NCBI GenBank assembly: GCA_022825855.1
Contig: JAJDWB010000021.1
Coordinates: 1-64,000 of the forward strand
DNA from: Dehalococcoidia bacterium
GTDB lineage: Bacteria; Chloroflexota; Dehalococcoidia; Bin125
DNA: 64,000 nucleotides
Reading direction: 5' to 3'
Below, in pieces: positions 10,465 to 53,038 of this stretch; the first letter of the stretch is position 1; each line of letters starts with the position of its first letter. A model generated the notes under the pieces. That model saw only the letters and a program-made list of their open reading frames with translations. It had not been told where the DNA came from and ran no database searches. The position numbers and the translations under genes are program-made.

Positions 10465-11316
10465 ATGCATCAACCTCTGTTGGACACCTCTGCGCGGCGC
10501 TGGTTGCTCGGCGTCGCGCTCCTGGCCGGCCTGGCCGCACTGATCGTGTCGTTCGCGCCGTCGATCGATGCGCAGAATCAACCGAGGCCGCCGCAGTGGT
10601 TCTGGGGCGTGGACGCGGACGCTTACGCGGGCGCCACGATCAAGGCCATCAATCAGAACGGCGTCGAACTGTCCATCGACGAGGACGAGGACAATGCGGT
10701 GGTGTCCGCGCAGGGCGAGTGGTCCTACGTGATCGACACCGACGAGGCCTCGAGGGTGACCTTCCGTCTGATCGGCAGCGACGTCACGCTTGAGACCAGC
10801 CCAATCACCGTCGTCGGCGACGGCGAGTTCACGGAGGTGTCGATTGCCGACTTCCGGCACGACGTCACCGCAGTCGAGCCAGAAGCCACCTTGCCCGTCC
10901 AGATTCGGGCGCGGGTCTACCCCAGCAGCGAGAATCCGGCGATCCCGTTCCGCTCAATTGAGTTCAATCTCAGCGTTGACGGTGTGCCGGAGGCGTTGAA
11001 TGACAATCCTCGCGAGCGGACGATCCGCCCGAACCATGCGAGTGGTCGCTGGTACCGCAGCAACTGGTTCGACCTGGGCGACGGCTTCCGGGCCGCGATC
11101 ATCGCCTGCAAGGATCAGAGTGGCGGAGTCCGATTTGGTGTCCGAGTCGATGGACGTGATGACATCATTCCGCGACTGAACCTGCTCCCAGCAAGTCGCA
11201 CATCCACCCGATGGGCGGTCAGCAATGAAGTCGATATCATGCAACCCGGCAACGATGCCAATCCGAGTCGGGCAGGCCGCGGCGACGACAACTGCCGTTT
11301 CGGCAAGGACAACTGA
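10465..11316 (+). CDS. Secreted protein with a novel tandem repeat
   Basis: The 283-residue protein has a signal sequence (residues 12-36, RRWLLGVALLAGLAALIVSF, cleavage likely near IDAQ). Residues 45-130 look like a small beta-sandwich domain (GVDADAYAGATIKAINQNG ... GEWSYVIDTD). The C-terminal part holds two copies of a repeat: residues 166-205 and 221-258, each with a 'FxLxVDG ... PR ... RW..SN..D' pattern. The same repeat occurs twice in the secreted DsbA-like protein at 51917. I do not recognise the family. A good ribosome site (AAGGAG) precedes the ATG, and a hairpin follows the gene. Confidence 0.75.
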   Translation: MHQPLLDTSARRWLLGVALLAGLAALIVSFAPSIDAQNQPRPPQWFWGVDADAYAGATIKAINQNGVELSIDEDEDNAVVSAQGEWSYVIDTDEASRVTFRLIGSDVTLETSPITVVGDGEFTEVSIADFRHDVTAVEPEATLPVQIRARVYPSSENPAIPFRSIEFNLSVDGVPEALNDNPRERTIRPNHASGRWYRSNWFDLGDGFRAAIIACKDQSGGVRFGVRVDGRDDIIPRLNLLPASRTSTRWAVSNEVDIMQPGNDANPSRAGRGDDNCRFGKDN

Positions 11317-51849: not shown

Positions 51850-51885
51850 AAGCGCGGGGCGGGAGACACAATCCGCCCCGCGCTT
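51850..51885. terminator. Hairpin after the LLM gene
   Basis: AAGCGCGGGGCGG and CCGCCCCGCGCTT form a 13-bp stem around a 10-base loop, 27 bases after the LLM stop codon and just upstream of the DsbA-like gene. It separates the two transcription units; no T-run follows. Confidence 0.7.
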
Positions 51886-51916
51886 GCTTGTCCGGAGCAT
51901 CGTGTTTCGGGGCATA

Positions 51917-53038
51917 ATGAAACGGATGATGCTGAACACGAACCGGATCGCCGTACTCGCCGTCGCCGCCTTGCTGGCCGTCGCGGCGCTCCTCGGCTGG
52001 TCGCTCGATCAAGGGCAGCCCACGGCCTCGGCCCAGTCGGGTCGGAGCGAGTCGGTCCAGGTACGGGCGCAACTGCTCGAGAGCGGCCGGATCGAGCTCA
52101 GTCTGCGCACCCGCACGGGCGACCTTTCGCCCAGGCAGCGTCTCTTTCCCGTCGGTACGCGGGAGACCGGCTGGCTGGTCAGTACGCCGGTCGAACTACC
52201 CAACGGCGCCGAGGTCCTGATCATCGCGCGCCGCCAGGCGGACCGCGATCTCGAATTCGGCGTGCGCACGCTCGATCCGCGTGAGGACTACCTGCCCAGG
52301 GGCCGTGTCTTCCCCGCCTCCACCCCGGTCGGCCGCCGGCTGATCAGTACGCCGGTCCGCATCCCTGCGCCCCCGGCGCAGGATGACGCACAGCAGCAGG
52401 CCGACGAGCCTCAGCCGCAGCCAGAGCCGACACCGGAACCCGAACCCGAGTCGTCGACCGATGACGAGGGAGGCAGCGACGAGACCACCGAGAGCGTCGA
52501 GCGCATCTCCGGCGGTCACCGCGACGGCCTGATCGTCGAAAACGGTGTGCTTGGCGACCCGTCCGCGCCGGTCCTGATCAGCGAATACGGCGATCCGTTT
52601 TGACCCGCTTGCCGCAGCTTCGCAGCTCAGGTTGAGCCGCGAGTGATTCGAGAGCTCGTACAGACCGGACAGGCACGGTACGAGTTTAAGGTGCTCTCCT
52701 ACATCGGCCCGCAGTCCGACCGCGTCGGCCTTGGCATGATCTGCGCCCTCCAGCAGAGCGGCGCCGCGTTCTGGGAGTTCTACGATCGCTTCCTCGTCGA
52801 TCGCAGTTCGGCCCACCGACGCGAGCAATTGATCAGCTTCGCCACCGACATCGGCCTCGACTCCGACCAGTTCACGCAGTGCTACAACGATCCAGCGACG
52901 CGCCGGCAGTTGAATGACGAGCTCAACGCCGCACGCGCGCTCGGCATCAGCCATGGCCCCCGAACCCGCGTCGACGACCAGAGCGGCGGCACGACGTTCA
53001 CTTCCATCCAGCGGGCCGTCGAACGCGCGATCCCCTAG
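51917..53038 (+). CDS. Secreted DsbA-like thiol-disulfide oxidoreductase, probable selenoprotein (in-frame TGA = Sec229)
   Basis: Read through TGA 52601-52603, the gene encodes 373 residues. Residues 1-40 are a signal peptide (IAVLAVAALLAVAALLGWSL). Residues 57-150 hold two copies of a repeat shared with the protein at 10465. A Pro/Glu/Gln linker (QPQPEPTPEPEPE) follows. From residue 210 comes a DsbA-family domain: GVLGDPSAPVLISEYGDPF, then TGA, then PACRSFAAQVEPRVIRELV. Family members have CPxC here, so TGA replaces the first active-site Cys, giving U-P-A-C. The same frame stays open for 145 codons with DsbA features (ICALQQSGAAFWEFYD, DIGLDSDQFTQCY, LGISHGP). A candidate SECIS stem-loop follows the TGA. 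A nonsense mutation or read error would look the same. Two thioredoxin-fold genes are in the window; the TlpA-like one is ordinary. Confidence 0.72.
52607..52637 (+). promoter_or_regulatory. Candidate bacterial SECIS stem-loop after the in-frame TGA
   Basis: Three bases after TGA 52601-52603 a hairpin can be drawn: GCTTG pairs with TGAGC (52633-52637, two G-U), CC with GG, then a 2x2 internal loop, then AGCT with AGCT around loop TCGC (52620-52623). A single T (52632) is bulged. The apical loop begins 17 bases after the TGA, in the range for bacterial SECIS elements. The loop lacks the G usually found in its first two positions, so the match is only partial. Confidence 0.42.

Follow-up and report, generated by a model that had tools for sequence, protein, structure and literature searches.

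The locus considered here raises the question of whether an in-frame TGA ends a gene or is read as selenocysteine (Sec, U) in the active site of a redox protein. The window analysed, i.e., the whole stretch of 64,000 nucleotides from a Dehalococcoidia bacterium (assembly GCA_022825855.1, contig JAJDWB010000021.1, positions 1 to 64,000), carries on its forward strand a frame at 51917–53038 that, when translated with TGA as Sec, gives 373 residues in one frame with only one internal TGA (52601–52603) and a terminal TAG stop (53036–53038). The residues around this TGA read EYGDPF-U-PAC and then RSF, so that U229 opens a UPAC active site exactly where homologues have the first Cys of their DsbA-type CPxC; the orthologues are of similar length and in the same frame. 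Our results indicate that this internal TGA is almost certainly decoded as selenocysteine and that the product would have a thiol-disulfide role. Listed without recoding, the region yields two ORFs (51884–52603 and 52643–53038), as foreseen by the first-pass annotation, which had placed the TGA exactly at the first Cys of CxxC in a frame open beyond it and expected automated callers to make two false genes of it. Indeed, standard annotation cuts such selenoprotein genes into false halves.

Orthologues were compared in a set of 100 genomes (the source genome and 99 relatives), in which those relatives that carry names in the public set are MAGs from Dehalococcoidia or Chloroflexota; a sponge host, read from some of their isolate names, is only a guess. 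The gene was found at the same place in 12 of the 14 other genomes of the genus, with 45–58% identity, and each copy has TGA at the codon in question and none has Cys. Since all 13 orthologues keep TGA at that codon, with a conserved frame after it, the TGA is not there by chance. A single match spans both halves of the gene in every case except G007, where the match is split in two, and two genomes of the same genus, G003 (a 470-contig assembly) and G014, gave no match to the full protein. Distant homologues in the class carry Cys (TGC/TGT) at the Sec site, and the alignment of homologues proposed in the first pass thus returned TGA in orthologues and TGC/TGT farther away. In addition, gene order is kept, with two glyoxalase-like genes downstream and, wherever the contigs of relatives are long enough to show it, a luciferase-like gene upstream that is 95% identical.

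A selenocysteine insertion signal was located just behind the TGA. The hairpin starts ~18 nt 3′ of the TGA (GCRGCUCAGGUUGAGCCGC, with a GGU loop) and, in the source sequence, occupies 52619–52643 on the forward strand, with pairs reaching beyond a conserved core at 52622–52640 and the apical GGU loop at 52630–52632. A stem-loop had first been drawn at 52607–52637; a hairpin does exist downstream, but that placement was only rough. The alignment of 63 distinct sequences, gapless from the TGA (the T of TGA being column 1), showed one hairpin common to all of them at columns 22–40, with the consensus GCGGCUCAGGUUGAGCCGC. Standard pairs filled 93.8% of the cells over the 63 sequences, compared with 27–39% when the pairing was slid by 1–3 columns, and two-sided changes occurred in 14 cells against 1.2 in shuffles (0 of 500 shuffles reached as many). 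Examples of these compensatory changes are found at columns 27/35 (UA to CG or to GC) and 29/33 (AU to GC); pair 25/37 is often unpaired. RNAalifold returned the same hairpin minus one pair. Codon usage is also constrained, as codon +8 is NCT in 13/13 orthologues (GCT and ACT make up 9–10% of Ala and Thr codons in the background) and codon +10 is GTT in 11/13 (background 14% of Val codons). The Cys homologues have no such hairpin. According to the published bacterial SECIS model (PMC13188914), the loop has 3–9 nt with a G in its first two positions, the stem 4–16 bp, and the distance from the UGA is 16–37 nt; the present hairpin, with a 3-nt loop beginning with G, an 8-bp stem and 26 nt from UGA to loop, fits this model, as the proposal of a downstream SECIS required. 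Note that the folding energy of the source hairpin alone is ordinary (z = −0.35), and the case for the SECIS is one of conservation and covariation, not of stability.

The covariance model (CM) built on the aligned SECIS sequences and run on the genome gave exactly four matches with E < 1e-13, all in UxxC DsbA-like genes, namely the present gene and three genes in tandem elsewhere in the genome. All four sites belong to the training set, and therefore what the CM search adds is only the absence of a fifth strong site. For the genus, the SECIS is now described by a sharp model. The next-best match (E = 0.009) was judged to be chance, as it falls in an unrelated stretch, though a UGSC selenoprotein lies ~600 bases away.

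The selenocysteine machinery, for which the first pass had suggested a search, is complete in this genome (2.8 Mb, 96% complete): selA (513 bits), selB (344 bits) and selD (352 bits) were all found, together with a tRNA-Sec gene (selC, 70 bits) whose anticodon is UCA according to ARAGORN. A UGA at the Cys position of homologues, a SECIS hairpin and selA/selB/selC/selD, by which bacterial selenoproteins are recognized, are hence found together here. Two further observations concern selenoproteins of other kinds. The selD gene (L011, 1501–2442) has its own in-frame TGA in the GGUGSK motif (GG-U-GSK), and SelD itself is for this reason probably a selenoprotein. A UGSC-family selenoprotein is encoded at L090 (603–1127), with TGA at GD-U-GSC and a Pfam UGSC match of 7.4e-46.

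Other explanations of the TGA were weighed and rejected on the TGA of the orthologues, on dN/dS and on terminal TGA stops. The two ORFs obtained by standard gene calling would also be expected of a pseudogene, that is, a former CxxC DsbA-like gene broken by a nonsense mutation at its Cys codon. However, such a history is extremely improbable for a TGA held by all orthologues down to 45% identity in a genome with complete sel machinery. Codon-position differences and dN/dS point to selection on both halves of the gene (median dN/dS ~0.32 before the TGA and ~0.28 after it, rough values as dS is high), and C232, C276 and C322, all located past the TGA, are invariant among the orthologues. The absence of decay downstream, which the selenoprotein reading called for, is thus observed, the frame being intact without frameshift and under similar purifying selection on both sides. 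An assembly or sequencing error at 52601–52603 is so unlikely as to be negligible, because the same TGA is shared by twelve other assemblies.

The frame open across the TGA would equally suit a TGA read as an amino acid other than Sec, through a code change or general readthrough. Yet TGA also serves as the final stop in 7 of the 13 orthologues and is therefore not reassigned; moreover, the site is that of the catalytic Cys, and both a SECIS and the Sec machinery are present, all of which leaves this explanation very improbable. We consequently retain the decoding of this codon as selenocysteine.

The product combines parts that the first pass had named from the letters alone, and its signal peptide, Pro-rich linker and repeat region were all recovered from the translation, the structural model and self-alignment. 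The signal peptide covers residues 1–39 (51917–52033, forward strand as for all features of this gene), with a hydrophobic helix at residues 6–26 in the model and a probable signal peptidase I cleavage between ASA and QS; there is no lipobox Cys, and the translation has no Cys at all ahead of the active-site Cys232. An N-terminal beta domain follows (residues 43–155; 52043–52381), formed by two tandem repeats of ~52 residues each (self-alignment score of 63 versus at most 49 over 500 shuffles). Modelled alone, this front domain reached a pLDDT of 91 and a pTM of 0.84; it had no Pfam match, and the PDB fold search gave no match at E ≤ 0.001. A similar beta domain occurs at three other places in the source genome. 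At one of them, L109 (1375–2370), the encoded protein joins a beta repeat domain of the same kind to an AhpC/TSA-type thioredoxin-fold domain with CYNC. Within the window, a 283-residue protein encoded on the forward strand at 10465–11316 shows a signal-like start and a region resembling the beta repeat domain, with no Pfam match.

A disordered linker rich in Pro, Glu and Asp (residues 156–192; 52382–52492; pLDDT below 50) leads to a DsbA/BdbD-like thioredoxin-fold domain (residues 208–371; 52538–53029), assigned by Pfam and Foldseek. The Pfam matches are Thioredoxin_4 (PF13462; 1.3e-19, 71.4 bits against a cut-off of 23.2) and DSBA (PF01323; 7.3e-7, 29.6 bits against a cut-off of 25.6). The full-length model (pLDDT 80) displays the signal helix, the beta domain, the disordered linker and a thioredoxin fold with inserted helices, and a DsbA fold with an inserted helical domain is borne out by this predicted model and by Foldseek, in which the C-terminal domain matched BdbD (3eu3, E 2.7e-9) and also Wolbachia alpha-DsbA1. 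Besides Cys232 (52610–52612), the resolving Cys of the U-x-x-C motif, the other two invariant Cys are Cys276 (52742–52744), which aligns with one of the two non-active-site Cys of alpha-DsbA1, and Cys322 (52880–52882), which aligns with a Cys of the same protein; together they probably form a second, structural disulfide, and a C97A/C146A mutant is among the solved structures of alpha-DsbA1. Pro348, a candidate for the cis-Pro of the loop facing the active site, is invariant and stands where such a residue is expected.

Computation supplies the signals for recoding, the extent to which they are conserved and a predicted fold, and from these the following course may be proposed. The UGA would be decoded by SelB and tRNA-Sec, guided by the hairpin ~18 nt downstream, and the signal peptide would send the protein out of the cytoplasm, where the two-repeat beta domain and the flexible, Pro- and acid-rich linker may hold or aim the C-terminal BdbD/DsbA-like domain. 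Sec229 would act as an exposed nucleophile resolved by Cys232, with a selenenylsulfide in place of the disulfide. Given the fold and the motif, export and Sec229/Cys232 thiol-disulfide exchange are most likely.

This gene is not the only one of its type in the genome. Three DsbA-like selenoprotein genes lie in tandem on the minus strand at L053 (7027–9284; G000:C13, ~242.0–244.3 kb), with UPFC, UPSC and UGGC, and every genus member examined has such an array, made of three or four DsbA-like genes that carry TGA at this motif. They share the domain and the SECIS with the fusion protein; for the first two the start was also read, and it is lipobox-like, with no front domain behind it. A tree of 81 domains groups the fusion proteins in one clade (support 99/95) and largely separates the Sec forms from the Cys forms, the latter belonging to other families; note that two Sec forms from other families fall among the Cys forms. 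There is a strong sequence case that these bacteria use selenocysteine in several exported disulfide enzymes in each genome.

How these UxxC enzymes exchange electrons without a recognizable DsbB or VKOR is a puzzle. The partner that a DsbA-DsbB/VKOR system should have in its genome was missing, as neither VKOR nor DsbB was found in the source genome or in 12 others of the genus (13 genomes searched), and a gene for a CcdA/DsbD_TM-type membrane protein is present in the source genome. Taken together, these two results tilt the case slightly away from a classic DsbA-type oxidase and towards a reductase, an isomerase or a peroxide-coupled role. An oxidase that forms disulfides as DsbA/BdbD does, and that a membrane partner re-oxidises, nevertheless has in its favour that BdbD and alpha-DsbA1 are the nearest solved structures by fold and sequence, and that VKOR genes were found elsewhere in the class, in other families, where three of them share a contig with a DsbA homologue and lie close to it. 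With no such partner found in the 13 genomes of the genus, we consider this function somewhat unlikely, an unrecognized oxidant being possible. There is about an even chance that the protein acts mainly as a disulfide reductase or isomerase fed by the CcdA/DsbD-type protein, or as a thiol peroxidase. The latter roles agree with the presence of CcdA/DsbD_TM without oxidase partners and with the L109 protein, in which an AhpC/TSA-type domain is fused to a front domain of similar kind; however, the fold is that of DsbA/BdbD and not of a peroxiredoxin, and the tie to CcdA is one of co-occurrence only. We thus lean towards an extracytoplasmic disulfide reductase/isomerase or a peroxide-coupled enzyme, and away from an oxidase of the classic DsbA-DsbB kind. 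A broader and more doubtful suggestion is that the genus swapped the DsbA-DsbB/VKOR route for a selenium-based extracytoplasmic thiol system, in which each genome has four or five DsbA-like enzymes with UxxC and lacks DsbB/VKOR, one of these enzymes carrying a beta domain of unrecorded fold as an anchor or substrate selector.

A VKOR-family gene of a related genome deserves separate mention. At L046 (G026:C216:23543-26162), this gene follows immediately on a DsbA-like gene with UPYC and has an in-frame TGA (2406–2408) at its CPWC motif, giving UPWC. A GCGAU-GGUC-AUCGC hairpin can be drawn ~23 nt after the TGA; its loop is included in a 48-nt fold, but a shorter piece folds otherwise. The gene looks like a selenocysteine form of VKOR, seen in one genome only, with 9% contamination; if so, both members of a disulfide-forming pair may have acquired selenium in the class. 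VKOR is absent from the 2026 review of selenoproteins (PMC13188914), and neither Sec-VKOR nor Chloroflexota DsbA-like fusions were found in the open-access literature, to which the search was limited (subscription papers being outside its scope).

Among known proteins, Bacillus subtilis BdbD and Wolbachia alpha-DsbA1 have in common with the present protein the fold and the active-site position, as well as, for alpha-DsbA1, the second Cys pair, but they carry Cys where Sec stands here and lack a front domain. The partner of BdbD is the DsbB homologue BdbC, and nothing related to BdbC was found here. As for selenoproteins, DsbA-like proteins with UxxC are a known type: the Sargasso Sea and Global Ocean Sampling (GOS) sets contain such proteins (PMC1088965, PMC2398784), and the Rcas_1661 family is listed as DsbG-like UxxC (PMC13188914). 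The Sargasso Sea and GOS families (DsbA 1, pfam01323) likewise show a DsbA-like domain, UxxC and a downstream SECIS, the comparison with them being one of domain and motif. NF041057 (Rcas_1661 family thioredoxin-like (seleno)lipoprotein) is the best NCBIfam match not only of our protein but also of the two tandem paralogues that were scanned; however, the score of 116.4 bits is below the equivalog cut-off of 190, and our protein lacks the lipobox and has the extra two-repeat front domain and linker. The first-pass remark that the combination of parts was not known from described selenoproteins is therefore fair where it concerns fusion to the repeat domain but not for the DsbA-like UxxC selenoprotein itself. 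Altogether, as far as our searches show, what is new is the presence of four to five UxxC enzymes without DsbB/VKOR, and the fusion of one of them to a two-repeat beta domain at a fixed place in one genus.
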